From the IMG/VR virus record IMGVR_UViG_3300044957_000444, positions 1 through 26,297 of that record: 26,297 nt of DNA; one strand, written 5' to 3'. Made by a program: the position numbers and the translations under genes. Origin of the DNA: a virus. This document shows, one piece after another, positions 6,608 through 20,735 of this stretch (its first letter is position 1; each line of letters starts with the position of its first letter). Under the pieces are notes generated by a model that was not told the origin of the DNA, ran no database searches, and saw only the letters and a program-made list of their open reading frames with translations.

Positions 6608-7411
6608 TCAACTCTCTGATGAGGATTTTGCGACAGAATTTTCGGTTATCCGACCCAGATAAGGATTATAGTTCATGTAATCTTTAATATCAATATTGGC
6701 ACCATTTTGTTCCCAGAATTGAAAAAGAGCATTATAATTTGCTCTGTGAAATATATCAATATGTTCTGGATGAATCGAAGATCCAAGTTCTATTCTGTAA
6801 AGTAAAAGTGGAATACTATAAGTATTACCAGAATTATAAATTAAATCATCGGCAACAGGACGTGGTTTAACACCATTATCAAGTTTATATTTTTCCCCTT
6901 TAATATGAAATCTTATAAGTTTTTCTGCATGATGACGATTGATTAAATAGCAGGCTGTAGAAAAATCATTTACAAATCTTTTATGAAGTTTAACGTGAAT
7001 ATCTCCGGTACAAATAATCGCAATTTGAATTACATCCCAATCATAAGGGACATGAGCATAAAAATCATTCCAAGTAAAATTCCAAAATCTCACCAAATCT
7101 AAATTACAATCATCTTCCATAATCACCGCATATGAACTATCAGAAGTTTCATACCAATGCTTAATAGCCTTAAGATGAGAAGTAGTGCATCCAATCTCAC
7201 TAGATGTCATCATCTCAGGATAACGTCCAGTAAGAATGTCACTCAAATCATCATCTCTACCATCATATGCAGAGATACGTGTATAATTTTGGATTTCCCA
7301 ATACTTAAACTGATCTTCCATATATTGGCGTCTTTCTGGTTGATCATCTAAATTAAGGTAGTAAATGGGATCAAAGTTTTGGAGTTTGTGTGCAGATTTA
7401 TTTTTATCCAT
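6608..7411 (-). CDS. Glycosyltransferase family 25-like protein
   Basis: 267 aa from the ATG at 7411, which overlaps the upstream GT11 stop as TAATG; a TTG 15 nt earlier is possible but less likely. GT25 hallmarks: a start strand YYLNLDDQPERRQYMEDQF, then EIGCTTSHLKAIKHW and the metal-binding acidic strand YAVIMEDDCNL, with a later PVADDLIY segment. No membrane span, so a cytosolic transferase. GT25 members (the LPS beta-galactosyltransferase LgtB family) add sugars to LPS cores or O-chains. It is the last gene of the glycan operon. The sugar donor cannot be read from sequence. Confidence 0.85.
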   Translation of the reverse strand: MDKNKSAHKLQNFDPIYYLNLDDQPERRQYMEDQFKYWEIQNYTRISAYDGRDDDLSDILTGRYPEMMTSSEIGCTTSHLKAIKHWYETSDSSYAVIMEDDCNLDLVRFWNFTWNDFYAHVPYDWDVIQIAIICTGDIHVKLHKRFVNDFSTACYLINRHHAEKLIRFHIKGEKYKLDNGVKPRPVADDLIYNSGNTYSIPLLLYRIELGSSIHPEHIDIFHRANYNALFQFWEQNGANIDIKDYMNYNPYLGRITENSVAKSSSES

Positions 7412-8265
7412 TAAATAATTTCCCAATCACAACAATAAAGATCTTTTGTATCATGAAATGAATATGCGGAACCAAACCACATTTTTGGTGCTATTACCTT
7501 TTTATTTGGATTTTTTTGCAACCAAGCACCCCACCAACTCATAGAACTATTGGCAATAATAGCATGAGAACAAAGAGACATTAAACATAGATCTACATAC
7601 GGAACTAATGCTCCATCATCATATTTGTCCTCTGGTTCAGAAAACATGAATCGATCTGGTTTAAAAAACTCTTGTTCTTTACACCATTCAATAGAATCCG
7701 AGAATACAAGAACTGGTATATTATCTGAAAAATATGCCAATGCCTTTTCGTAATATTCCAATGGTTGAACTGGATGTTGATCTTGAAGATTCACATAAGC
7801 CCATTTAAATCCACGTTTATCTGTCAGATTAGGATCTCCCCTACGAACATGTAAAAAAGCAACTTCTTGATCTCTAAATTGCTTCATGAATTCTTGACAT
7901 GGTTCTAACCATTCTTTTTTGAAAGTGTAGTCTTCACGAACTTCATCCTTTACATGTTTAAAATATTTTTCTGTTTGAAAAAACCCAACCACATTTGCAC
8001 TATCAGGACAATCATTGAATAATTCTTCATCAAAATGAAAATGAGATTCTTGTGCAGGAATCATGTTATAAGAAAACTTGACATGATCTACATTTTTCAT
8101 TTCAAATGCATCAAACAATCCATAATTATCAATCTGGAATTCTGGATGGTGTGGTGGAATAGAGTATTCAAACCCCCTATTTCTAGCAATTCCTTTTACT
8201 GCGGCATGTTGGAACATTTGATTTCCCAAACGACCCATAGTACCAATATTATCAAATCCAATCAT
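7411..8265 (-). CDS. GT11 alpha-1,2-fucosyltransferase-like protein (downstream copy)
   Basis: 284 aa with the GT11 motifs in order: GTMGRLGNQMFQHAAVKG at the N-terminus, the GDP-sugar-binding HVRRGD at 139-144, VFSDSIEWCK near 187-196, and the C-terminal signature DLCLMSLCSHAIIANSSMSW with SWWGAWL. Family length is about 280-300. GT11 enzymes use GDP-L-fucose to make Fuc-alpha-1,2-Gal (H antigen) in bacteria and animals. The ATG overlaps the end of the epimerase gene by 14 nt with AGGA upstream, so the two are coupled. A second GT11 lies at 10629-11555. The sugar may be L-galactose here (see findings). Confidence 0.92.
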   Translation of the reverse strand: MIGFDNIGTMGRLGNQMFQHAAVKGIARNRGFEYSIPPHHPEFQIDNYGLFDAFEMKNVDHVKFSYNMIPAQESHFHFDEELFNDCPDSANVVGFFQTEKYFKHVKDEVREDYTFKKEWLEPCQEFMKQFRDQEVAFLHVRRGDPNLTDKRGFKWAYVNLQDQHPVQPLEYYEKALAYFSDNIPVLVFSDSIEWCKEQEFFKPDRFMFSEPEDKYDDGALVPYVDLCLMSLCSHAIIANSSMSWWGAWLQKNPNKKVIAPKMWFGSAYSFHDTKDLYCCDWEII

Positions 8266-9100
8266 TTTTCATTTCCTCAAACACTTTAGCAATCCCATTA
8301 TCTATTGTAGTCTTTGGTACCCACCACCCAGTAATATAAGTATTTGCTTCATTCCTTTTATCCATTTGAACACTATCTTTTTCTAAACCTGGTTTAATAT
8401 TTACCTCTCTACCAATTAGTCTAAACTGATCCCGAATGATTTCAGCAATCTCTTTAATAGAAGTTGATCTAAATGATGTAATGTGAAGAGGATCTTCTGG
8501 TTTAAAATCAGTATAATTTTCCATTATGGTTTCTAATGCTTCACAACAATCTTCAGCATACAGAAATTGTCTTTCCTCTGTACCATCCGTCATCATCTCA
8601 AAATCACCTTTTTCAAATCCTTTTCGAATAAAATCAGTGATTACGTGTGCCTTTTCGTGATCATTTTCAATACCATAGACATTCCAGAATTTAACAGTCA
8701 ATCCATTCAGTGCAGTGGTGTAAAGTTCACCAACTCTCTTCATCACACCATAAGGAGAGTAACTCATATTACTCATCTGAGAAGATGCGAATACAAATCT
8801 CTTATTATATTTTTCAAGAAGATCGAATGCATTTGCAATGATGCGAGTATTATTATTGATAAAATCAAAAGTATGTTGATACTTTTTGAGATACCTAGAA
8901 CCACCTACATCAAATGCTAAAAAGAAAACAAAATCAGAATCCATAATCACACGATGAAGTTCTGGATTAGGAATAACGGTTAGATCTTGATGTTCTCCAT
9001 TGACAACATCAAACTCATGAATCTTATGTCCCTTGTTACCCAAATATTTTGTCAAATAGGCACCGATCTGACCACCAGAACCCAATATCGCAATTTTCAT
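8252..9100 (-). CDS. NAD-dependent sugar epimerase/dehydratase (extended SDR)
   Basis: 282 aa. Rossmann signature GSGGQIGAYL at 7-16, acidic strand ending FDV, and the SDR catalytic pair in SPYGVMKR (Tyr117, Lys121) with an upstream Ser in FASSQMS; WNVYG follows as usual. C-terminal half has the RQFLYAEDCCEAL motif of nucleotide-sugar SDRs. It acts on a nucleotide sugar in the cytosol; the exact reaction (4-epimerase, reductase or dehydratase) is not decidable. A weak AGGA precedes the ATG, and a 70-nt AT-rich gap upstream may hold a promoter. Confidence 0.85.
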   Translation of the reverse strand: MKIAILGSGGQIGAYLTKYLGNKGHKIHEFDVVNGEHQDLTVIPNPELHRVIMDSDFVFFLAFDVGGSRYLKKYQHTFDFINNNTRIIANAFDLLEKYNKRFVFASSQMSNMSYSPYGVMKRVGELYTTALNGLTVKFWNVYGIENDHEKAHVITDFIRKGFEKGDFEMMTDGTEERQFLYAEDCCEALETIMENYTDFKPEDPLHITSFRSTSIKEIAEIIRDQFRLIGREVNIKPGLEKDSVQMDKRNEANTYITGWWVPKTTIDNGIAKVFEEMKNDWI

Positions 9101-9141
9101 TTTTAAATTTCCTAAATTAGATTAATCTTATTAATTAAAAA

Positions 9142-9169
9142 AATATAATATATTTTCTTCCAATCGCAA
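9142..9169 (-). promoter_or_regulatory. Possible internal sigma70-like promoter in the glycan operon
   Basis: TTGCGA (9169-9164), 16 nt, TATATT (9147-9142), upstream of the SDR gene in one of the few real gaps of the operon. The AT-rich background makes chance matches likely. Confidence 0.3.
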
Positions 9170-9901
9170 TTAAACGAGTTTAGAAGGATAATAAGTGCTT
9201 GGACAATTGTTCAAATCTGGAACTCCTTGAAGACTACTTAAATTATATTTAACGTTATCAAAAAACGTATCAGATTGTGAAATATCCATTCCCATTTCTG
9301 TGATTTTAGTTGATGTTACTCCACTATTATGTCCATCTTGTTTAAAAATAGGCATATCCAAAGAATAAACATTATAGTATTTTTGTATTTCAGCATATCC
9401 ATTATCCATGTGATCCATAAGTTGATAGCCACAATACTTAGATATGCGAGAGCAAACTTTGCGATATTCTTCAGAAAAATAGATTACAGCATGTCCAGAC
9501 AACATATTATATACTTGGACTATTTTATCATTAATTTTTTTATAATGCAAAAATGGACCAGAAAAATTTAAATATCTTGCCCACTGAGATACTCCAATGA
9601 ATAGAGCATCAGCATCATCAGGAACTTCAATTTCAAATTCATAATTACCAGTAAATAAACAGTCATCTTCCATTAACAAAAATGGAGTTTGAATTGAAGT
9701 ATCAGACAAAACTTTATGTTGAGATCTGGCACACCCAACTTTGCCGTCATCACACTTAACTCCAGAAACTCTTGTCACAAAAGAAAAGTTAAGTCTATTG
9801 AGAGTATACTCAATGGATCTCCTTCTATCTTCTTTTTCATCAAGATTAATATAGTAAGTATTTAAATTTCTTAGGTTAATTTTCATATCAAATGTTACCA
9901 T
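9170..9901 (-). CDS. Glycosyltransferase family 25-like protein (second)
   Basis: 243 aa. The start strand NTYYINLDEKEDRRRSIEYTL, the motif GCARSQHKVL and the acidic strand FLLMEDDCLF match GT25. It is distantly related to the GT25 at 6608-7411, with much divergence. The first ATG (9901) overlaps the GT6 gene by 14 nt; another ATG at 9886 sits one base after the GT6 stop and would give MKINLRNLNTYYINLDEK, an equally good start. No membrane segment. Likely adds one sugar in the same glycan. Donor and linkage unknown. Confidence 0.8.
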   Translation of the reverse strand: MVTFDMKINLRNLNTYYINLDEKEDRRRSIEYTLNRLNFSFVTRVSGVKCDDGKVGCARSQHKVLSDTSIQTPFLLMEDDCLFTGNYEFEIEVPDDADALFIGVSQWARYLNFSGPFLHYKKINDKIVQVYNMLSGHAVIYFSEEYRKVCSRISKYCGYQLMDHMDNGYAEIQKYYNVYSLDMPIFKQDGHNSGVTSTKITEMGMDISQSDTFFDNVKYNLSSLQGVPDLNNCPSTYYPSKLV

Positions 9902-10619
9902 ATTGATCTAATTCTCTTTTTTCTTGATTAAATGAGGTGTCAAAAGCATCCTTATTAACTGCAATCAGTTTTGGTTTCCAGGGGTAATTTGAATAATTAA
10001 CCAGTTCTTCAGGAAACATATAACTTGGAGAAAGATCTTTTGGAGGATTCTCATTGAAATATTTGTTCAAATGACTTTCGTCATGCCACACTGCAACAAT
10101 TCCATTCTCCTCATCTTTAGAAACTCTTTCAGAAATAGTCCTTGCCATTTCCAGAAACTTCTCAGATCTACCACCAGCAAATGCTGCAGCATAATACTTA
10201 TTTCTATTATTATCAGGAACATAAGCAGTAGACTGCTTTCTTACTTCATAAGGATAGACAGACTTATCCTCGAGCACTTTGTATGGATGAATTACACCAA
10301 CCAAATCTTCAAGAACTTCATCTCCAACCTTATCCACAAAATAAACATCAGCATCAAACAGGTAAGTATAATCAAACTGTTTAAGATACTCTCTCTCAGA
10401 ATAAATGTAGTTGTACTTTTTCAATGCTGGTTCAGGCCAGATCTTATGTTCAATTTTACTAACTTTAATATTATCAGAAGTCTCTTCTAAATCATTATCA
10501 GTAAAAAGAAGACAACTAATATCATGATCTACCAAAAAATTATTTTCAATAGATTTAAGAAGTTTTTCAACAAATTGAATATACCTTCCAGTTGCAATTG
10601 TAATTACACAAATTTTCAT
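9888..10619 (-). CDS. GT6 family (ABO-type) alpha-1,3-glycosyltransferase
   Basis: 243 aa. Strong family-6 pattern: LLFTDNDLEE, WPEPALKKY, the nucleotide-metal motif YLFDADVYF with DxD at 89-91, GDEVLEDLVGVIHP, TAYVP, KYYAAAFAGGR, and the catalytic block AVWHDESHLNKYF (Glu181, equivalent to the mammalian catalytic Glu) ending with LSPSYMFPE. GT6 includes the human blood-group A and B transferases and alpha-1,3-galactosyltransferases, which retain configuration and move GalNAc or Gal onto galactose. Bacterial members often have NxN; this phage one keeps DxD, as animals do. It lacks the Golgi anchor and stem, so it is a soluble minimal catalytic domain. It directly follows a GT11 gene (gap ~9 nt). 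Confidence 0.92.
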   Translation of the reverse strand: MKICVITIATGRYIQFVEKLLKSIENNFLVDHDISCLLFTDNDLEETSDNIKVSKIEHKIWPEPALKKYNYIYSEREYLKQFDYTYLFDADVYFVDKVGDEVLEDLVGVIHPYKVLEDKSVYPYEVRKQSTAYVPDNNRNKYYAAAFAGGRSEKFLEMARTISERVSKDEENGIVAVWHDESHLNKYFNENPPKDLSPSYMFPEELVNYSNYPWKPKLIAVNKDAFDTSFNQEKRELDQYGNI

Positions 10620-10628
10620 TTTAATAAC

Positions 10629-11555
10629 TCAATTATATGTCATTTGAATCCAACCATTTGGAATGAGATCTTTCGTATCATTACTCTTCATAAGATCTGG
10701 ACCAAACCATGGTTTTGGAACTATTATATCATTCGTTCTATTCTTTTGCAACCAAGAACCCCACCAACTCAGAGAACTTGTTGCTGTAATGCCGCCATTA
10801 CACAAACTCATTAAACAGAGATCAGTATAAGGAATAGTTGATGATCTAAATTCAGGATTACCATCTAACCATAACCAACACTTACCAGAAAATTTTTCAT
10901 TATTTTCAGATAAATAAAACCTTTCATCTTTAAAAAATTCTTGATCTTTACACCAATCAATTTCATCACTACAGACAATTACAGAAACATTATCGTTGAA
11001 TTTTTTTAAAGCAGGTGCATAATAATCATCAAAAGTTTTATTCTTACAAAGATGTTCAAATCCATGGGCATCACCTCTACGAATATGCAAGAAAATAACC
11101 TCACTAAACTGAGATACAAAATCTTTACAAGGTTCTAAAATTTCATCAATGAATTCAAAATCTTCACGAATTTCTTGTTCAATATGTTTGAAGTATTTTT
11201 CAGATTGAAAAAATCCATCAATATTTGTATTGTCTTCTACTTCATTAAAAAGTTTTTCATCAAATTCAAATGATTTTTCAATTTTATTTTTGATTTGCGG
11301 GTTTGAAGATGCAAGTGATTCAAAACTATATCTTTGTTGATCTCCAACATTTTTATTTAAAATTCCAATATTACTTTCCTTTAAATGAGGCATTTTAAAA
11401 GGAAATTGAATACAATAATCAGTTAATGATAAAATATCTTTATCAGGAATACACCAATCAAATCCACGATTTGCAGCAATACCACGAAGAGCAGCATATT
11501 GAAACATTTGATTTCCCAATCTTCCATTGCTTCCTAATCTGTCGTATGAAATCAT
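10629..11555 (-). CDS. GT11 alpha-1,2-fucosyltransferase-like protein (upstream copy)
   Basis: 308 aa. Same architecture as the other GT11: LGSNGRLGNQMFQYAALRG, HIRRGD at 157-162, VIVCSDEIDWCKDQEFF, and DLCLMSLCNGGITATSSLSW with SWWGSWL. An extra stretch (~residues 60-95) is missing from the shorter copy. Start is set by an ATGA overlap with the preceding gene (11552-11555). Its C-terminus ends 9 nt before the GT6 gene, placing an H-antigen-type enzyme immediately ahead of an ABO-type enzyme. The two GT11 copies are clearly homologous but diverged, suggesting different acceptors. Confidence 0.92.
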   Translation of the reverse strand: MISYDRLGSNGRLGNQMFQYAALRGIAANRGFDWCIPDKDILSLTDYCIQFPFKMPHLKESNIGILNKNVGDQQRYSFESLASSNPQIKNKIEKSFEFDEKLFNEVEDNTNIDGFFQSEKYFKHIEQEIREDFEFIDEILEPCKDFVSQFSEVIFLHIRRGDAHGFEHLCKNKTFDDYYAPALKKFNDNVSVIVCSDEIDWCKDQEFFKDERFYLSENNEKFSGKCWLWLDGNPEFRSSTIPYTDLCLMSLCNGGITATSSLSWWGSWLQKNRTNDIIVPKPWFGPDLMKSNDTKDLIPNGWIQMTYN

Positions 11556-12430
11556 AGTTTTAATTCTGATGGATCAAATTTATAATCAGAGTCTAAAAAT
11601 ACTCTGTTAGGATATGTAGGTTGATAAAAATTATCTCTCACAAGTGTCTGATTAAAATTCAATAGGTGTGAGATCCAACTATAAGAACTTTTAGACATAA
11701 TTAAAAGATTCGCATTTGACATATGATAAATGTCATCTATTGGATGTTCATTTAATTTTAAAACAATCTCAAAGTTTTTATTTGATAATTCTAACAAATC
11801 TATAAAATCGTTTTTATTTCCTTGAGAATGAATATAAACGCACACATTTTTATTATATAATCTTTCCTTTAAAATATCAAAAATATTTTGAATATGACTA
11901 GAATCCTTATAAACAAAATATGTCTCCATTTCTGGATAAGTTGGGACATCGCAAGAATTAAGTGCTCTTAAATGAAGACTAATATTGAAAGCATTTTTAT
12001 CAAAATAAATTTGATTAGAATAGATAAGATTTTTTTTTATTTCTTTCAAATAATCATTTTGATACATTTCATCAATCAATGGAAATCCATTTTTGATTAT
12101 AAAATTCTTATCAACTTCCACACAAATATTTTCTTTACAGTCTTCATTCTCGCCAATAAAGTCTAATAGATCTTGATATTTACCACTAAAGTCATATTCA
12201 ACATCAAACTTTTGTGACTTATTTAAATTGAAAAATTTAGTAAAATCTTCACTCCATCTTTCTTTGGGAACACTATTATACTGATAATGTGATATGTTTA
12301 TAAATGGATCAGCAAAAAAATCTACTTCAAGTTTTTTACAAATTCCATAAAGAACTAGATTCCATTGAGCAACAGAGCCTATTCCTTCCTTTCCAAATCC
12401 ATTAACATTAGTTTTTAAAAAAATAGACAT
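11552..12430 (-). CDS. Fucosyltransferase-like GT-B protein, divergent
   Basis: 292 aa. No clean family match, but it has ISLHLRALN (HxR, like the GDP-binding motif HxRRGD) at about 150-158 and, near 240-265, DDIYHMSNANLLIMSKSSYS followed by WISHLLN, which parallels the GT11 C-terminal signature (LCLMSLC...NSSMSWWGAWL). I infer a remote fucosyltransferase-type GT-B enzyme using a GDP sugar. The two key Arg/Asp residues of GT11 (RRGD) are not conserved, so the donor or linkage may differ. Very AT-rich. ATG start, no clear Shine-Dalgarno; its end overlaps the next GT11 by 4 nt. Confidence 0.65.
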   Translation of the reverse strand: MSIFLKTNVNGFGKEGIGSVAQWNLVLYGICKKLEVDFFADPFINISHYQYNSVPKERWSEDFTKFFNLNKSQKFDVEYDFSGKYQDLLDFIGENEDCKENICVEVDKNFIIKNGFPLIDEMYQNDYLKEIKKNLIYSNQIYFDKNAFNISLHLRALNSCDVPTYPEMETYFVYKDSSHIQNIFDILKERLYNKNVCVYIHSQGNKNDFIDLLELSNKNFEIVLKLNEHPIDDIYHMSNANLLIMSKSSYSWISHLLNFNQTLVRDNFYQPTYPNRVFLDSDYKFDPSELKL

Positions 12431-12432
12431 AA

Positions 12433-12561
12433 TTAAAAATTCAAATATTTACGAATTTCGTGCAAGTTAGCATCACACTGAATATAATCTTTAGGAATAC
12501 TTCGCAAAGTTTTTAAAAATTCTTCAGAAATAAGTTCTGGTTTAACATATTTATCCATCAT
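12433..12561 (-). CDS. Small hypothetical protein in the glycan operon (42 aa)
   Basis: ATG at 12561 overlaps the stop of the sugar dehydrogenase as ATGA, and TAA lies at 12433-12435. Sequence starts MMDKYVKPELISEEFLKTL and continues RSIPKDYIQCDANLHEIRKY. Soluble and charged. It fills the only gap between two glycan genes and is translationally coupled to the upstream one. It may be a genuine small protein or the remnant of a larger enzyme; no family recognised. Confidence 0.5.
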   Translation of the reverse strand: MMDKYVKPELISEEFLKTLRSIPKDYIQCDANLHEIRKYLNF

Positions 12562-13775
12562 TTTACTATTCCCCAATAATCAACAACTTTTTTATCAACA
12601 TAATTTAAATCACCGAATAATTTATCGGGATGCATAATCACCACCACATCCGAGTTATCAATACATTCCTGAGGATTTGAGAACTCATTAATGTTCATAT
12701 CAAGATTAGAATATGTTTCAAAAATAGAATCATAACCATTTACTTCAATTTCAAGATCTAAAAGATCTCTTATTAATCTTGCAGATGGAGATCCAATCAC
12801 AACAGGAGAGTTTGGTTTAAATGAAATTCCAAGAACTCCAACTTTTTGATAAGATTTAAGCTTACTCAAAATACTCCCATAAACCATTTCATTTACTTCT
12901 TCTGCAAAAATCAAGTTTTTTGCAGTTTTTTTTCTATCCTTTGCAAATTTTATAAATGCAGAAGTATCTCTTGGAAAACAAGTTCCACCATAAGGAGTTC
13001 CATACCCAAAAAAGTAAGGAGAAATTCTTTTATCTAATCCAATTGTTTGAGTAATATTATGAATATTTACATTATTCATTCCTTCGCAAAGTTGTCCTAA
13101 AAAATTTGCAAAAGTAATCTTATTTACGATATAAGCATTTAATGCAACCTTAGCAACTTCTGCTTCCTCTAAAGTTAAAATTTTTCTTGGTGGATCATTA
13201 TCATGAAATTTATACCAAATTGATTGAGTCATTATGGTGTCTTCAATATTGTTTGCACCAACTAAAAAGAATTCTGGATTTTTAAAATCTTTTATCACAC
13301 TACCAAGTTTGACAAAATCGGGAACATAAGAAAACCCAAACCCCTCACCATGAATTCTTTTAGAAATCTTTTCAACGTGTTTAATTAAGTTTTTAATGGT
13401 TCCTGGAAGAACCGTTGAAGAAAGAACAATAAGATGATAATCTTTAGTACTTTTTCTCAAGTTCATCGCAAGATCTGTGAGTGCAGATTCAACAAACTCA
13501 GATGAATAACCATTGTCACCAAGTTGAGTATTAACTAAAATAATAGTCGCATCAGTTTCATCAACCGCTCTTTGATAAGAATCAGTAAATCCAATAAAAT
13601 TTACATGAGGAAAAATATCAGATAATCCTGGTTCATAAAAAGGAACTTCTTTATTATTAAGTTTATCTAAAATAAACTCATTTTTATCAACACCAAGAAC
13701 TTTATTTCCGGATTTTGCAAGACAACATGCAAGAGGTAATCCTAACTTTCCCAATCCAACAAAACTAATTTTCAT
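12558..13775 (-). CDS. UDP-glucose/GDP-mannose 6-dehydrogenase family protein
   Basis: 405 aa, normal family length. N-terminal Rossmann motif VGLGKLGLPLA (GxGxxG at 7-12), middle helix EAEVAKVALNAYIVNKITFAN with the family's Lys209 and Asn213, and the catalytic-Cys loop GYGTPYGGTCFPRD (Cys266). The family oxidises the C6 of a nucleotide sugar (UDP-glucose to UDP-glucuronate, or GDP-mannose) with two NAD+. The usual active-site Glu in the (S/N)PEFLREG motif is Asp here (VPDFVKLGS), and the following Arg is Leu; a substrate other than UDP-glucose is possible. Coupled both ways: ATGA overlap with the adenylating enzyme upstream and with the 42-aa ORF downstream. Confidence 0.9.
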   Translation of the reverse strand: MKISFVGLGKLGLPLACCLAKSGNKVLGVDKNEFILDKLNNKEVPFYEPGLSDIFPHVNFIGFTDSYQRAVDETDATIILVNTQLGDNGYSSEFVESALTDLAMNLRKSTKDYHLIVLSSTVLPGTIKNLIKHVEKISKRIHGEGFGFSYVPDFVKLGSVIKDFKNPEFFLVGANNIEDTIMTQSIWYKFHDNDPPRKILTLEEAEVAKVALNAYIVNKITFANFLGQLCEGMNNVNIHNITQTIGLDKRISPYFFGYGTPYGGTCFPRDTSAFIKFAKDRKKTAKNLIFAEEVNEMVYGSILSKLKSYQKVGVLGISFKPNSPVVIGSPSARLIRDLLDLEIEVNGYDSIFETYSNLDMNINEFSNPQECIDNSDVVVIMHPDKLFGDLNYVDKKVVDYWGIVK

Positions 13776-14986
13776 TTCGATATAATCCTCACTAATTTAT
13801 TTTTCCAGTAAATATCATATTGCTCATCTTTTGCAATAACAAATTCAGTGTCCAATCCAACATTTTCTTTTACCCAATCTGCATAAGGTTTCAGTGCATC
13901 AAAATTTTCTTCATTTCTAAATCTAACATGAAGAATTAAAGTTTTTCTTGGAATATTTACCTCACATCTCCATTTTTCAATTATAGATCCTACAGTATGT
14001 GAAATTGGAGCAACAATCCACCAACCAATTGCTTTTTTTACCTCTGGCCCATTATAATAATCAACTCCACGACCAATTATATCATAAAGAACATAATATT
14101 GTCTACCATTGTTTTCAACTTTCTTCATCTTTCCCCTATCACCACACCTATAACGAAAGATAGGAGTTTGATGGTTATTGAAGTCTGTAACTACAATATA
14201 TCCCTCTTCATAGTCTTTTACCGGATTTCCATCATCATCAAGAATTTCAACAATTCCTTGTTCCATTATTACACGAAGATTTCCATATCCATCAGTTGAG
14301 GCAACAGTTGGGAGTTCAGCAAGACCATATTGTTCGTGGAATTCTTTGACGAAAGGAATCAATCTTTCCTTGTGTCCATATGAACTTTCACTACACCAAT
14401 GAATTTTAATATCTTTAAGAACGTCAGCATGTCCCGCATCAATAATCATTTCACACAATTGACGAATAGATCCTCCTGATCCATGAATAAGAAATGGTTT
14501 ATGTTTAACTACCCAATCAACATGCTTTTGAGAAAGTGTTTTATAATTCATTGCTTTCACATTTCTCAGACTATCATAAAATGGATAATTTGGTTCTCCA
14601 GAAATTAATCTAAAAACCCATTCATTTTTTCTACCCATTCGCATCCAACTACGAGTAAAAATAGCATCCTTTCTATACCAGGAAGAAGAAGGAACCCAAA
14701 TTACTCTTGGTTGTCCTGTAGATCCAGATGTTTCGTGCTGTCTCATTTCCTCATTAGGAAAATTAGGACTATCTGGGAGATCTGATTTAGTCATTACTGG
14801 AAGACTATAAAAATCATTCCAAGTTTGAATATCAATTCCAAACTTTGATGATGTTTCTTTAAGTCGTTCAAATTGAAAATTCTTTAATTCACCAATAGTT
14901 TTATTTTCCATCTCAATAAAGAAATTGAGGTATGAAATTTGATTAAAGGTAAACCTATCAAAAATTTTATACAGTAATTTTTTCAT
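13772..14986 (-). CDS. PaaK/CapK-like adenylate-forming enzyme
   Basis: 404 aa from the ATG at 14986, which overlaps the aminotransferase stop as ATGA; a GTG at 15007 is the alternative. ANL-superfamily motifs: phosphate loop HETSGSTGQPRV near 85-95, HWCSESSYG, ASTDGYGNL, and FRYRCGDRG around 277-286, then GRGVDYYNG. Relatives are phenylacetate-CoA ligase (PaaK) and CapK of capsule loci, which activate a carboxylate as an acyl-AMP. In a sugar locus between an aminotransferase and a uronate-forming dehydrogenase it might activate an acid for N-acylation of an amino sugar or amidation of a uronic acid. The substrate is not evident. Confidence 0.85.
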   Translation of the reverse strand: MKKLLYKIFDRFTFNQISYLNFFIEMENKTIGELKNFQFERLKETSSKFGIDIQTWNDFYSLPVMTKSDLPDSPNFPNEEMRQHETSGSTGQPRVIWVPSSSWYRKDAIFTRSWMRMGRKNEWVFRLISGEPNYPFYDSLRNVKAMNYKTLSQKHVDWVVKHKPFLIHGSGGSIRQLCEMIIDAGHADVLKDIKIHWCSESSYGHKERLIPFVKEFHEQYGLAELPTVASTDGYGNLRVIMEQGIVEILDDDGNPVKDYEEGYIVVTDFNNHQTPIFRYRCGDRGKMKKVENNGRQYYVLYDIIGRGVDYYNGPEVKKAIGWWIVAPISHTVGSIIEKWRCEVNIPRKTLILHVRFRNEENFDALKPYADWVKENVGLDTEFVIAKDEQYDIYWKNKLVRIISK

Positions 14987-16068
14987 ATAATTGGAAAATC
15001 TAAACACTTTTGAATGATGTAATCAACTTCATCATTTGTTATTTTATTATGTATAGGAAGTAAAATAATACTATCCGAAACTTGAGTTGCATTTGGAAGA
15101 CCTGATTTTTTCCAAAGTTCTTGTTGATGTACCGCAGTCCAACATTTTACCACAATTCCATTAGAAAACAAATATTCTACCATTTTATTTCTAATTTGCG
15201 AATCAACCATAATTCCATAAAAGAAATAATTTGATCGACAATAATTCGGAATTACTTGAACCTTAAATTTTGTAGATAATTCTTCTGTATATTTTCTAGC
15301 AATTTGATTCCTTCTTTCTACATATGAATCAAGTTTCTTTAGTTGTTCTCGTAAAATTGCAGCTTCAATGTCACACATTCTAAAGTTAAGTCCAAATCGA
15401 TTGTGAATATATTCATAAGACTTTTTATTTGAAGAGTAACCATGATTTACAATTGATCTACAAATTTCTGCAAGTTGATCATTGTTAGTGGTGATTAGTC
15501 CACCCTCACCTGATGTAATAATCTTTGATCTTTGAAAACTAAAACAATGAAGATCAACTTGAGTTCCAATTTGTTGATCTTTATAAGTTGAACCTAAACT
15601 CTCAGCACTATCCGCAATTAGGTAAACTCCAAGTTTTTTAAATTCATCATAATTACAAGGAACTCCACCAACATCAACAAGCATTACAACATTAACATCC
15701 TTAGGAACATCTTCTGCACGAATGTTCCAATTATCTAAATCACAATCAACAAGTTCAACATCATCCAATACAAACTTTGCAGCATTTGCAGATGCAATAA
15801 AAGTAAAAGATGGAACTGCTATTTTTTTAATTTCAGAATAAACTTCTTTGAGTGCAAGAAGTGAAGTCATTAATGCAGTAGTGCAATTAGAAACTAGAAT
15901 TGCATGTTTACAACCAAGTCTTTGTTGAAATTGTTTTTCTAAAAGTTCAAGATTTTCTCCTTTTACACCAATCCCTTGAGAAAGAGATTTGAGTGCGGCA
16001 TTAATTTCTTCTGAACCAATATCCACATCGTCCCAGTTAATTAATTTCATACTTTTCGCAAAACTCAT
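14983..16068 (-). CDS. DegT/DnrJ/EryC1/StrS sugar aminotransferase
   Basis: 361 aa, typical fold-type I length. PLP site: NCTTALMTSLLAL (phosphate binding), ADSAESLG (Asp153, pyridine N) and the Schiff-base lysine in SFQRSKIITSGEGGLIT (Lys182), where most relatives have SFHATK. The C-terminal NHGYSSNKKSYEYIHNRFG and FRMCDIEAAILREQL segments fit the family. These enzymes put an amino group on a keto nucleotide sugar using glutamate. Two ATGs are possible (16068, or 16050 giving MKLINWDDVDIG); both overlap the kinase-like gene, with no clear Shine-Dalgarno. Confidence 0.9.
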   Translation of the reverse strand: MSFAKSMKLINWDDVDIGSEEINAALKSLSQGIGVKGENLELLEKQFQQRLGCKHAILVSNCTTALMTSLLALKEVYSEIKKIAVPSFTFIASANAAKFVLDDVELVDCDLDNWNIRAEDVPKDVNVVMLVDVGGVPCNYDEFKKLGVYLIADSAESLGSTYKDQQIGTQVDLHCFSFQRSKIITSGEGGLITTNNDQLAEICRSIVNHGYSSNKKSYEYIHNRFGLNFRMCDIEAAILREQLKKLDSYVERRNQIARKYTEELSTKFKVQVIPNYCRSNYFFYGIMVDSQIRNKMVEYLFSNGIVVKCWTAVHQQELWKKSGLPNATQVSDSIILLPIHNKITNDEVDYIIQKCLDFPII

Positions 16069-17026
16069 TAATAAGAATTACTGAGGTATAATATGCAACT
16101 TTTGATCTTGCATCTACACCATCAAAATCAAGAAGAAATGGAACAAGACTTGCAAAATGCATTACTTCATTCCACTCTGTTTTTCTCATTACATCTGCAG
16201 GATCTTCTAGGGAATGATCATAAAGAACTTGTGGAAGCGATTTTTTAAGATTTTCACAAAGTTTGAATACATCATTATCAAATAATTTAAAGTTACTTCC
16301 ATCAAATTCAAATTGACGAGAAGCAATCATTTCATATTTTCCATTTACAGAGTGCCAAAACTTTCCATAGTCATAATAATAATCACAATAATCATAACCA
16401 CGGGGATCAATCATAATGAATTTATCATTTACACGATCAATCAAAACATTGGAGAAATGGAGATCAGAATGACTCCAACGACCAACAAATTCTGGTTGGA
16501 CTGTTTGAAGAAATTTTTGTGTTTTAAATTTTTCCGCAAGCACTGAGATGTTTTTATATTCATTATCATTTACAATAACGGTTTGTTGTTGAATAAGATT
16601 TTTAAAAAAATCAGATTTTTTGGACAGTTCTTCAAGACGATTACTTAAGCGAGTAAAGTGCATTATATTAAAGTAATCTTCAGGTGTTGGGAGAATTTGA
16701 TACTGATATAGTCTACGAGAAAGTTTTGTAATTTTATTTGCCCAATAGAGTACTTCCTTTTCATCAATTTCTCCAGAAAGAATTAATCTACGAAGAGTTG
16801 GAAGATCATAATGTTCCATCTCATAAAATGCTTTATTACCATCTATTCCATAAAAAATAATACGAGGAAAGTAATCTTTGAATTCTTCAGGAATATTTTC
16901 AATGAACTCATATTCATCTACAAGCTTCATCATCCGTTCGTCAGAAGCTTCTTTATGAACCCTGCTGACCAAGATAACCTTTGTTTTTCCACCACTTTCT
17001 TGTTTTAAATAATCAGAATTATTCAT
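16037..17026 (-). CDS. APH/choline-kinase-fold phosphotransferase-like protein
   Basis: 329 aa from the ATG at 17026 (8-nt overlap with the phosphatase gene; a GTG at 17041 is less likely). The kinase catalytic loop appears as RWSHSDLHFSNVLID (Asp and Asn in the HxDxxxxN pattern) followed by the metal-binding IMIDPRGYD and DYYYDYGKFWHS, as in aminoglycoside or choline kinases. The N-lobe YEFIENIPEEF...FYEMEHYD is weakly kinase-like. Substrate unknown; in a glycan locus it may phosphorylate a free sugar or related metabolite. It lies next to a HAD phosphatase, a pairing seen in nucleotide-sugar pathways. Confidence 0.75.
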   Translation of the reverse strand: MNNSDYLKQESGGKTKVILVSRVHKEASDERMMKLVDEYEFIENIPEEFKDYFPRIIFYGIDGNKAFYEMEHYDLPTLRRLILSGEIDEKEVLYWANKITKLSRRLYQYQILPTPEDYFNIMHFTRLSNRLEELSKKSDFFKNLIQQQTVIVNDNEYKNISVLAEKFKTQKFLQTVQPEFVGRWSHSDLHFSNVLIDRVNDKFIMIDPRGYDYCDYYYDYGKFWHSVNGKYEMIASRQFEFDGSNFKLFDNDVFKLCENLKKSLPQVLYDHSLEDPADVMRKTEWNEVMHFASLVPFLLDFDGVDARSKVAYYTSVILINEFCEKYEIN

Positions 17027-17336
17027 TGAAAAAATCCTCACTATTAATTGCTTTATCGTCTATGTAGTAATCTGCTGCATATTTAACTCCGGTTCTTAAT
17101 TCTTGAAACTTGACACCCCACCCTGTTAATTGATCATAAGTTTCAACATACCAATTTCTTTTAGTCCAAAAACCCCTTGCAGTTTCAATTATAACATAAT
17201 TACCTTCTTCAGACAGCATATTAACTTTTTTAATTCTATTTGGAAAAGGAAGTGCTTGAAGATAATTCCAAGAACCATCTTCATTCTTTTTCGTGTCACA
17301 AAGAGTATTGTCCAAATCAATTACATACCTTTTCAT
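17019..17336 (-). CDS. HAD-superfamily phosphatase, small
   Basis: 105 aa, a minimal HAD domain. Motif I VIDLDNTLCD (nucleophile Asp and general acid Asp) at residues 5-14, motif II in VIIETARG, and motif III/IV as KYAADYYIDDKAIN. This is the size and pattern of the capsule/LPS-locus HAD proteins. It would remove phosphate from a sugar phosphate or nucleotide intermediate. ATGA overlap with the epimerase gene upstream (17333-17336) shows translational coupling. Confidence 0.85.
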   Translation of the reverse strand: MKRYVIDLDNTLCDTKKNEDGSWNYLQALPFPNRIKKVNMLSEEGNYVIIETARGFWTKRNWYVETYDQLTGWGVKFQELRTGVKYAADYYIDDKAINSEDFFNE

Positions 17337-18382
17337 TTGTTTTTAATTTGCTCCAAAATCCAATTATAAGTTTTGCGAATACCTTCTTCAAGGGTCTGAG
17401 AATAATCCCAACCCAATTCTTTACGAATTAAATCGTTATTAGAGTTACGTCCACGAACACCGAGAGGAGCATCTAGAATATATTCTTTATCGACAAATTT
17501 ACTAGCAACCTTTGCAGCAGTCTCTACTAGTTGATTGATAGTTACCATTTCTTCTGAACCAATATTTACTGATCCAATAAAATCAGAATCCATTAATCTA
17601 CGAGTTGCTTCAATACACTCATCAATGTAAAGGAAAGAACGAGTTTGTTTTCCGTCACCCCATACCTCAATAGTACCACCACTTTCTGGAAGTTCTGCTA
17701 CCTTACGGCAGATTGCTGCGGGTGCTTTTTCTCTTCCACCTTCCCAGGTTCCTTCTGGCCCGAATATATTATGATATCGAGCAACACGTACAGGAATATC
17801 ATAGTTGCGATGATAAGCAAAGTAGAGACGTTCCGAGAACAGTTTTTCCCAACCATACTCAGAGTCTGGATTAGCTGGATATGCGGATTCTTCACGGCAA
17901 TCTGGATTATCAGGATCAAGTTGATTATGTTCTGGATACATACATGCAGATCCAGAATAAAAAATCTTGGTAATATTTAGATCTTTGAAGTCATTAAACT
18001 GACGTACAGATTCAAGTACATTTAAATTGATGGTACAAGAATTATGCATGATGTCTGCGTCATTCTCACCAGTAAATACAAATCCTGCACCACCCATATC
18101 AGCAGCAAACTGATAGATTTCATCAAATGGTTGTAAGTATTGAGAAGGGACAAAATGATAAAAGTTTCCCAGATATCCCTTAAATCGAATCACTCTTTCG
18201 ACAAAGTTTAGATCACGAAGATCTCCCTGAATGAATTCATTTGCTTCTGTTTTTGAAAACTCCGGTTCTTTTAGATCTACACCACGAACCCAATAACCTT
18301 CGGATCGTAGTCTTTTTACCATATGGCTTCCAATAAATCCACCGGCACCCAAAACAAGTGCTGTTTTCTTATATTCACTCAT
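17333..18382 (-). CDS. GDP-mannose 3,5-epimerase-like protein
   Basis: 349 aa. Close in pattern to plant GDP-mannose 3,5-epimerase: GAGGFIGSHM, QFAADMGGAGFVF, FYSGSACMYPE (catalytic Cys147), SEYGWEKL (Tyr176, Lys180), HNIFGPEGTWEGGREKAPAA (catalytic Lys219), GDGKQTRSFLYIDEC, GVRGRNSNND and LGWDYSQTLEEGIRKTYNWI. All four catalytic residues known from the plant enzyme are present. The reaction converts GDP-D-mannose to GDP-L-galactose (and GDP-L-gulose). An insertion of about 20 residues (~66-85, RFKGYLGNFYHFVPSQYLQ) precedes QFAADMGG and is not in the plant enzyme as I remember it. It is the first gene of the glycan operon, behind a late-promoter-like GATAAATA. Confidence 0.9.
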   Translation of the reverse strand: MSEYKKTALVLGAGGFIGSHMVKRLRSEGYWVRGVDLKEPEFSKTEANEFIQGDLRDLNFVERVIRFKGYLGNFYHFVPSQYLQPFDEIYQFAADMGGAGFVFTGENDADIMHNSCTINLNVLESVRQFNDFKDLNITKIFYSGSACMYPEHNQLDPDNPDCREESAYPANPDSEYGWEKLFSERLYFAYHRNYDIPVRVARYHNIFGPEGTWEGGREKAPAAICRKVAELPESGGTIEVWGDGKQTRSFLYIDECIEATRRLMDSDFIGSVNIGSEEMVTINQLVETAAKVASKFVDKEYILDAPLGVRGRNSNNDLIRKELGWDYSQTLEEGIRKTYNWILEQIKNK

Positions 18383-19947: not shown

Positions 19948-19984
19948 ACTTATGATTATAGGATTTTTGTTTGTGAAAGTCAAG

Positions 19985-20055
19985 AGCCCTATATCGGAAT
20001 TGAACCAATCTCTGCAGTTTACAAAACTGCTGCATCACCACAATGCTTATAGGGT
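19985..20055 (-). tRNA. tRNA-Thr (UGU), slightly atypical
   Basis: Anticodon arm GCAGT-TTTGTAA-ACTGC (TGT), D-arm GCAT-TGTGGTG-ATGC, T-arm ATTGG-TTCAATT-CCGAT, acceptor CCCTAT with ATAGGG. Position 1 reads A opposite C72 (mismatch) and position 8 is A where tRNAs nearly always have U. It begins directly after the U-tract of the tmRNA terminator. No encoded CCA. Confidence 0.85.
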
Positions 20056-20082
20056 AAAAAAATAGAAGGCATTACACCTTCT
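20056..20082 (-). terminator. Terminator at the 3' end of the tmRNA gene
   Basis: AGAAGG (20082-20077) pairs with CCTTCT (20069-20064) around a 7-nt loop, then A and seven T residues, which end one base before tRNA-Thr. Confidence 0.75.
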
Positions 20083-20133
20083 TGTAAGTTTTGGGTAAAA
20101 AGGAAACTTATAACCCCTTTCACTCTTTTAAAG

Positions 20134-20178
20134 TCAAACCAATACTGATTGACGAGTGAATGCAACGATTTTGTTTGC
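20134..20178 (-). other. tmRNA tag-peptide reading frame
   Basis: Resume codon GCA, then 14 codons (ANKIVAFTRQSVLV) and TGA. From memory, marine Synechococcus/Prochlorococcus tags read ANKIVSFSRQ... and end in Ala-Ala; here the C-terminus is Leu-Val. Confidence 0.88.
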
Positions 20179-20241
20179 GTTTGTTTGTTTGTTGCGTCAA
20201 CAATTAGAATCTTGATGAACTGTCGATTCCAGAGCAGACCC

Positions 20242-20247
20242 AAGTAA
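20242..20247 (-). other. Intervening segment between tmRNA acceptor and coding pieces
   Basis: Six bases (TTACTT) separate the discriminator A of the acceptor piece from G1 of the coding piece. It is removed during maturation in permuted tmRNAs; this is very short. Confidence 0.7.
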
Positions 20248-20312
20248 TGGATCTGGAGAGATTCGAACTCTCGTGCAACTCATCAGACTTTCCAATCTCT
20301 TCAACTCTTTAT

Positions 20313-20341
20313 ATAGTAGCAAATATTTTTTATAATGTCAA
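20313..20341 (-). promoter_or_regulatory. Sigma70-type promoter for the tmRNA
   Basis: Perfect -35 TTGACA (20341-20336), 17-nt spacer, -10 TACTAT (20318-20313), and a start expected near 20306. The host-type promoter differs from the late octamers around it, so this RNA may be made early by unmodified host polymerase. The -35 box begins one base after tRNA-Ser ends. Confidence 0.75.
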
Positions 20342-20342
20342 A

Positions 20343-20424
20343 CGGAGAATAATAGAATCGAACTATCAGACTTTCACCTGGCATCGTTTTCAAGACGATT
20401 TACCGACCATCGGTGCTATTCTCC
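20343..20424 (-). tRNA. tRNA-Ser (UGA)
   Basis: Acceptor GGAGAAT with ATTCTCC; anticodon arm ATCGT-CTTGAAA-ACGAT (TGA); long variable arm typical of class II tRNAs; T-loop TTCGATT; discriminator G. No encoded CCA. 82 nt. Confidence 0.95.
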
Positions 20425-20439
20425 TCATATGTCTCTAAG

Positions 20440-20513
20440 TCGGGCATAAAGGATTTGAACCTTTGACCTTCCCGCCCCAAACGGGACGCGCTACCAAACT
20501 GCGCTAATGCCCG
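20440..20513 (-). tRNA. tRNA-Pro (UGG)
   Basis: Acceptor CGGGCAT with ATGCCCG; anticodon arm TCCCG-TTTGGGG-CGGGA (TGG); T-loop TTCAAAT; discriminator A. 74 nt. Confidence 0.95.
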
Positions 20514-20515
20514 AA

Positions 20516-20560
20516 CAGCTCAGGCTGGATTCGAACCAGAGACTTACCACTTGTAAGGAG
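20516..20560 (-). pseudogene. 3' half of a tRNA, Val(UAC)-like, lacking its 5' half
   Basis: Anticodon-like CTTACAA, T-arm TCTGG-TTCGAAT-CCAGC (outer pair T-C mismatched) and acceptor 3' strand CTGAGCT are present, but no complementary AGCTCAG exists upstream and the anticodon stem does not close. Upstream sequence instead encodes an HNH-endonuclease C-terminus, so the 5' half was replaced. Confidence 0.6.
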
Positions 20561-20656
20561 TTCGCAGTGACAGTTAGCACAAAGCATATCGCATTTGTCC
20601 AGTTCTGCCTTGATTTTTTCCCAACTCCAAAGACGTATCTTATTCCAAGATCCTTC
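20555..20656 (-). pseudogene. HNH homing-endonuclease C-terminal remnant
   Basis: Between tRNA-Arg and the half-tRNA, one frame reads WNKIRLWSWEKIKAELDKC then DMLCANCHCEL. The block ELDKC..LCANCH is the characteristic C-terminal zinc/His part of phage HNH endonucleases. The N-terminal part, including the first HNH strand, is missing and the frame runs out of tRNA-Arg, so no functional start exists. It is probably a decayed mobile gene that had inserted in the tRNA cluster. Confidence 0.65.
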
Positions 20657-20663
20657 CTTAAGC

Positions 20664-20735
20664 AGGCACGGCTGGGGTCGAACCAGCAATCGGCAACTTA
20701 GAAGGTTGATGCATTATCCATTATGCTACGTGCCC
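20664..20735 (-). tRNA. tRNA-Arg (UCU)
   Basis: Acceptor GGGCACG with CGTGCCT (G-U at the end pair); anticodon stem TCAAC/GTTGC-like with loop CTTCTAA (TCT); T-arm GCTGG-TTCGACC-CCAGC. First tRNA of the cluster. 72 nt. Confidence 0.93.

Follow-up and report, generated by a model that had tools for sequence, protein, structure and literature searches.

What use might a cyanophage have for a tmRNA of its own, and for a tag that ends in Leu-Val where the tags of picocyanobacterial hosts end in Ala-Ala? The question is raised by one locus of the window, the whole stretch of DNA analysed here, which is an entire virus record of 26,297 bases and probably a fragment. The window encodes a high-light-inducible protein, the large and small subunits of ribonucleotide reductase, an endolysin-like protein, a ferritin/Dps-like protein, and tail-lysozyme and S74 domains. 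Because of this content we assign it to a cyanophage, most likely a T4-like one. A run of genes at 6608-18382, with a glycosyltransferase, a sugar epimerase, a UDP-glucose dehydrogenase and a DegT aminotransferase, makes up a cassette for surface sugars next to the tRNA region. As read by eye, the 3' half of a tRNA at 20504-20689 adjoins a short reading frame whose CxxCH stretch resembles the end of an HNH endonuclease; this is perhaps what is left of a homing gene within a tRNA.

Anatomy of the tmRNA locus

The initial annotation had described a phage-encoded, permuted two-piece tmRNA of cyanobacterial type, and the Rfam search bears this out. The cyanobacterial model RF01851 (cyano_tmRNA) aligns both pieces, covering 20322-20066 on the minus strand over its full length (model positions 1-288 of 288) with 101.5 bits against a gathering cut-off of 70 and an E-value of 1.1e-26. 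A match to RF04321 (tmRNA_permuted; 20297-20134, minus strand, 60.6 bits) lies inside it. ARAGORN, run on the window, reports five tRNAs and no tmRNA. The promoter, six-base spacer, pseudoknot and terminator that had been read between tRNA-Ser and tRNA-Thr are all present, and below the entry for the whole tmRNA the features are given in their order on the minus strand.

20341-20056, minus strand: tmRNA, cyanobacterial-type two-piece (permuted), complete (Rfam RF01851)
20343-20424, minus strand: tRNA-Ser(TGA), upstream neighbour (ARAGORN)
20313-20341, minus strand: sigma70-type promoter just 3' of tRNA-Ser, TTGACA (20341-20336), 17 nt, TACTAT (20318-20313)
20248-20306, minus strand: acceptor piece with the 5' side of the helix joining the two pieces, the T arm, the 3' side of the acceptor stem (CAGATCC) and A73 (Rfam alignment)
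20248, minus strand: discriminator A73
20242-20247, minus strand: 6-nt spacer separating the pieces (boundary reading)
20064-20241, minus strand: coding piece with acceptor 5' strand GGGTCTG (G1 at 20241), D-loop TGGAATCGAC, tag frame, pseudoknot and 3' hairpin
20134-20178, minus strand: tag frame ANKIVAFTRQSVLV, from resume codon GCA to stop TGA (read from the sequence)
20137-20142, minus strand: last two tag codons, TTG GTT, Leu-Val (host: Ala-Ala)
20084-20121, minus strand: pseudoknot region 3' of the stop codon, limits approximate (by eye, RF01851 alignment)
20056-20082, minus strand: intrinsic terminator, an 8-bp hairpin (stem 20082-20064) and a T-run to 20056
19984-20055, minus strand: tRNA-Thr(TGT), downstream neighbour (ARAGORN)

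The 5' end of the acceptor piece (20306), which was placed from the position of the promoter, and the 3' end of the coding piece (20064) are putative, and the spacer would be lost when the precursor is cut in two. The acceptor stem GGGTCTG/CAGATCC forms 7 of 7 pairs, including G3.U70, across the two pieces; the terminal CCA is not encoded, as is also the case in the hosts. The loop and downstream strand of the pseudoknot remain complementary despite changes of letters: the consensus GGUCA/UGACC is replaced by AAGUUU/AAACUU in the window, UAACA/UGUUA in L319, GAUCA/UGAUC in L015 and AGUCA/UGACU in L325, pairings that were read by eye from the Rfam alignments.

Viral relatives of the gene

A pattern scan that left the tag end free found 48 viral contigs, and at least 120 loci when applied to bacterial genomes; a second viral scan, with the other Asn codon, added 15. 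The gene is carried by the isolates and single-cell viruses S-CAM1, S-CAM3, AG-345-P14, S-CRM01 and S-SSM7. Among 17 further viral loci, 16 exceed the RF01851 cut-off and all 17 exceed that of RF04321. L030 and L045, whose tags are cut by contig ends, and L001, a copy of the window, were left out. Three chance matches were dropped: L125, at a contig end in a Phycisphaeraceae record, and L173 and L177, which have no tmRNA-like tag. Ten contigs have a PHROG match, each through a single protein, the assignments including ribonucleotide reductase, minor coat protein, DNA helicase, HNH endonuclease and psbA, in keeping with phage origin.

ARAGORN recognises the tmRNA at 59 of 69 viral loci and, among the matches listed, at 119 of 120 host loci. 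The tag ends that it reports are those read by the pattern, and in a few cases its tag starts lie some residues away. The window, L021, L028, L039 and the L009 group, all of which have the D-loop TGGAATCGAC, escape it, as does L030 with its contig-end cut. The D-loop TGGAATCGAC always occurs together with A59 in the T-loop (9 of 9: the window, at 20229-20268, and L009, L021, L025, L028, L038, L039, L043 and L045) and was never seen in the hosts examined. This pairing, a possible tertiary covariation, is a likely explanation of why ARAGORN misses these genes.

Several loci have peculiarities of their own. An entire tRNA-like gene, with anticodon GTT by eye, sits inside the inter-piece spacer of L015 (1333-1669 of IMGVR_UViG_3300027906_000087), and both pieces there still match RF01851 with 162.7 bits. 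The 'hypothetical protein' AOV58949.1 annotated across the tmRNA start of S-CAM3 (L003, 2500-2640) is probably a false gene call. Matches to the abiF RNA (RF03085) lie within or beside the tRNA arrays of two tmRNA-bearing phages (L008, 3640-3676; L028, 1658-1694), and the arrays around the tmRNA are very dense in L037, with more than 20 tRNA matches, and in L008. The 24-residue tag of S-SSM7 (L325), ANNIVAFSRILTREFARTDELVTA, is unusually long.

Origin of the gene and of its promoter

The tree of the tmRNA core, computed without the tag end from short sequences and with host sampling limited to picocyanobacteria among the matches listed, separates 47 viral from 23 host rows by a single branch with 100/100 support. 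A larger tree groups 83 host rows in one clade and 40 viral rows in another, the remaining viral rows falling outside both; it carried a long-branch warning, and the 47-and-23-row tree is its rebuild without L015 and L125 on about a quarter of the host rows. The nearest relatives of the window tmRNA are all viral. Viral and host genes have therefore been long apart, and any capture from a host is old. These trees speak against recent capture, which we reject, and the simple acquisition of a host gene first suggested for this locus is not supported.

The promoter matches the consensus at 10 of 12 positions, which by itself is weak evidence, since the surrounding 921-base region has 7 sites of at least 9/12 where 1.7 are expected. 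Among the 66 viral sequences with sufficient upstream DNA, however, 26 have a promoter pair of 10 or 11/12 at one common distance from the T-loop (one is 1 base off), with a spacing of 17 bases in 25 and 16 in one, whereas none of 116 host sequences among the matches listed scores that high in the same upstream stretch. The window promoter is on these grounds more than chance. Some further viral sequences (e.g. L308, L309 and L322) have 9/12 at the same place and the remainder have no clear promoter there. The proposed host-type promoter is sigma70-like, as described; its derivation from a host is not supported by the host count.

The end of the tag

The initial annotation read the tag ANKIVAFTRQSVLV correctly, and overlooked that it ends in -VLV, without the Ala-Ala of picocyanobacterial tags and of canonical ssrA. 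Among the matches listed, all 119 complete picocyanobacterial tags (13 distinct) end in Ala-Ala, while 59 of 66 complete viral tags of cyanobacterial type do not. The viral ends comprise 27 AV, 25 LV, 7 AA (L015 included), 4 TA and 3 TV; as 29 distinct tags, 19 end in V, 4 in TA and 6 in AA. The tag of S-CRM01, which ends in AAL, falls outside the pattern and is additional to the 66. The second, separate viral scan gave no AA end in 15. Counted as distinct tags, 23 of 29 viral and 0 of 13 host tags (the latter among the matches listed) lack Ala-Ala, with a Fisher p of 1e-6 that is overstated because the sequences are related. A pattern search of 300 picocyanobacterial genomes found an Ala-ending tag in 259, with a pattern that in a local check catches 7 of 69 viral and, among the matches listed, 119 of 120 host loci. 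A Val-ending tag was found in none of the 300, using a partial pattern that takes no TAG stops and catches 36 of the 69 viral loci in the same kind of check.

The loss of Ala-Ala appears to have been reached by several routes. L308 (...RQSAPVAV) differs from a host tag (...RQSAPVAA) by one changed residue, L035 (...RQTALV) is two residues shorter than its host counterpart (...RQTALVAA), the tags of L319 and S-SSM7 end in ...LVTA, and that of S-CRM01 ends in ...LVAAL. The final Val is encoded by GTT or GTA in the Val-ending tags, the Leu of -LV by CTA, CTT, TTA or TTG, and the viral tags stop at TGA, TAG or TAA. By parsimony no more than 5 switches between AA and non-AA are required, and since the viral sequences are related, the independent events are few. 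At L028 (3326-3489) a core nearly like that of the window is joined to the tag of the L018 group (ANKIVAFSRTSVPSLV), which suggests that core and tag regions have been exchanged within the gene.

Other viral tmRNAs retain the canonical end. A tmRNA-like tag is present in 14 of 16 viral loci of the alpha type, and all 14 (ANDN, pattern-read) end in LAA, 11 of them also called by ARAGORN; the tags that ARAGORN reads in seven further viral contigs from another scan end in AA. Overall, the non-cyanobacterial viral permuted tmRNAs have AA in 18 of 18 ARAGORN tags, from 24 loci of which six gave no call. L308 and L321, also met in this control scan, are of cyanobacterial type and were excluded from the 18. 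The one-piece ANDENYA-type tags end in AA in 120 of 120 among the matches listed, a weak control, as the set looks to be mostly prophage edges with a host gene. The single viral contig matched by an actinobacterial-type pattern gave no tmRNA with ARAGORN. Loss of AA as a general viral habit is rejected on the permuted and, more weakly, the one-piece controls; since AA is retained in the other viral permuted tags, the change is a trait of the cyanophage lineage.

Relation to known systems

The window gene is of a known kind, a permuted tmRNA of cyanobacterial type, and the phage precedent that had been in doubt is published: PMC9004378, in the part available, describes two-piece tmRNAs in phages, phages of cyanobacteria included, and counts 53 such structures in phage records, of which 50 come from marine or aquatic samples, in a census that sorted tmRNA forms with ARAGORN. 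The tmRNA database of PMC11915505, likewise in its available part, counts 79 bacteriophage sequences. What is new is the tag without Ala-Ala; no paper on its systematic loss in cyanophage tags, or on phage tmRNA tag ends generally, was found in a search of openly available literature.

With the picocyanobacterial permuted ssrA (RF01851) the window gene shares piece order, an encoded A73 without CCA, G3.U70, a tag start of ANK/ANN-I-V and the pseudoknot. It differs in its Leu-Val end, its D-loop with T-loop A59, its viral lineage and the placement of its own promoter. The marine phage tmRNAs of Melnitz, Mosig and AG-345-P14 described in PMC9004378 are likewise phage-borne and permuted, although that of Melnitz is of an alphaproteobacterial type with a glutamine riboswitch. 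Tag ends are not discussed in the part of that paper available. The isolated Kyanoviridae S-CAM1, S-CAM3, S-CRM01 and S-SSM7 have RF01851 matches as well, at loci where their records bear no tmRNA annotation; their tags differ from that of the window, ending in TVAA (S-CAM1 and S-CAM3), LVAAL (S-CRM01) and LVTA (S-SSM7).

Possible role of the altered tag

Whether the gene still works at all comes before what its tag might do. The window scores below a host-like viral copy (101.5 bits against 170.1 for L024) and its clade is missed by ARAGORN, as might be expected of a functionless copy of a host gene in decay. The viral acceptor stems, however, come in ten different forms, and the full 7/7 stem, G3.U70 and A73 are present in the same 67 of 68 sequences, L015 being the lone stem failure only because of the tRNA gene in its spacer. 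The promoter stands at a fixed offset, and -LV is kept through different codons. Since the charging features are intact and the tag end is maintained synonymously, decay is exceedingly improbable, and random decay of the tag is rejected on the synonymous conservation together with the compensated stems. The extra ribosome rescue once proposed for the locus would be plausible.

ClpX reads the terminal Ala-Ala-carboxylate, and substitution of either Ala raises KM and leaves Vmax nearly unaltered (PMC7652416, in the part available). All six host ClpX proteins examined have the motifs GYVG, NPSITRDVSGEG and GGRKHP, and one was aligned to solved ClpX chains. We take these pore motifs to be the sites of the residues named for Ala-Ala reading. 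On this basis we lean slightly towards the reading that cyanophages keep ribosome rescue and weaken the destruction step, through a tag that ClpXP would read poorly. The precursor would be transcribed from its own promoter, cut by host tRNA enzymes into two base-paired pieces and given CCA, charged by host AlaRS through G3.U70, and carried by host SmpB to stalled ribosomes. The ribosome would finish on the phage tag and be freed, leaving a chain that ends in -VLV instead of the host -PVAA. Such a chain would be degraded more slowly by ClpXP, since ClpX recognises an Ala-Ala-carboxylate terminus best, or be passed to another protease. Reporter tags ending in AAV or ASV are reported as weaker than LVA in Synechocystis (PMC3446811, citing Huang 2010), and cell survival is described as needing rescue, not degradation (PMC8012679). 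Against this, 7 of 66 viral tags keep AA, so its loss is unnecessary for persistence of the gene. The viral ends are all small or hydrophobic (V, A, L), and a weak degron may survive. Ala-Ala is moreover not central everywhere, since in Helicobacter pylori a change of the last two Ala to Asp stabilised the tagged protein only weakly, according to the part of PMC2584231 available. The tag end may also lie in an RNA hairpin, as drawn in the Rfam structure line, and this could drive codon changes too.

The retention of Leu-Val through synonymous codons in several tag families, as if something read it, would also fit a positive signal for another protease or adaptor, of host or phage, by which chains would still be destroyed. 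The tags of Mollicutes, with a different ending read mainly by Lon (PMC9382460, in part), offer a parallel. The candidate reader is hypothetical, however, and the ends vary (LV, AV, TV, TA, AAL), and we consider such retargeting unlikely. It is no less doubtful that picocyanobacteria degrade chains ending in -VAV and -VLV as efficiently as those ending in -VAA, the viral gene simply adding rescue capacity: the H. pylori case is a precedent, and the viral ends stay hydrophobic, as terminal residues of tags usually are (PMC4131195, in part), but the contrast with the uniform host AA among the matches listed, the 18 of 18 AA ends of other viral permuted tags and the weaker AAV and ASV ends in Synechocystis speak against equivalence. 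Inhibition of tmRNA is reported for a molecule resembling the TLD-only tmRNA of phage DS6A (PMC4131195), and the viral RNA might by analogy serve mainly to titrate SmpB and block host trans-translation; a decoy would need neither tag frame and stop, nor pseudoknot, nor charging features, all of which are kept, and this role is very improbable.

Returning to rescue with weakened destruction, a more specific form of it is tentative, and we would not call it probable: a dedicated cyanophage tmRNA would separate rescue from destruction by placing a non-degron tag on stalled chains during the breakdown of host mRNA, competing with host tmRNA and sparing ClpXP capacity or selected partial proteins. 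The engineered degradation-deficient tmRNA, tmRNA-DD, is laboratory-made, whereas the cyanophage change arose in nature and extends across a viral lineage. Common to it, to the ssrA AAV/ASV reporters and to the proposed phage system is that rescue is kept and degradation weakened via the last residues (PMC8012679 and PMC9382460, in the parts available). If this is true, the cyanophage gene would be nature's equivalent of the laboratory tmRNA, maintained by selection in viruses that infect the main phototrophs of the ocean. Phage tmRNAs are worth reading for their tags, and one clade of them escapes ARAGORN. The altered end makes it testable whether a phage needs rescue, degradation, or rescue without degradation.
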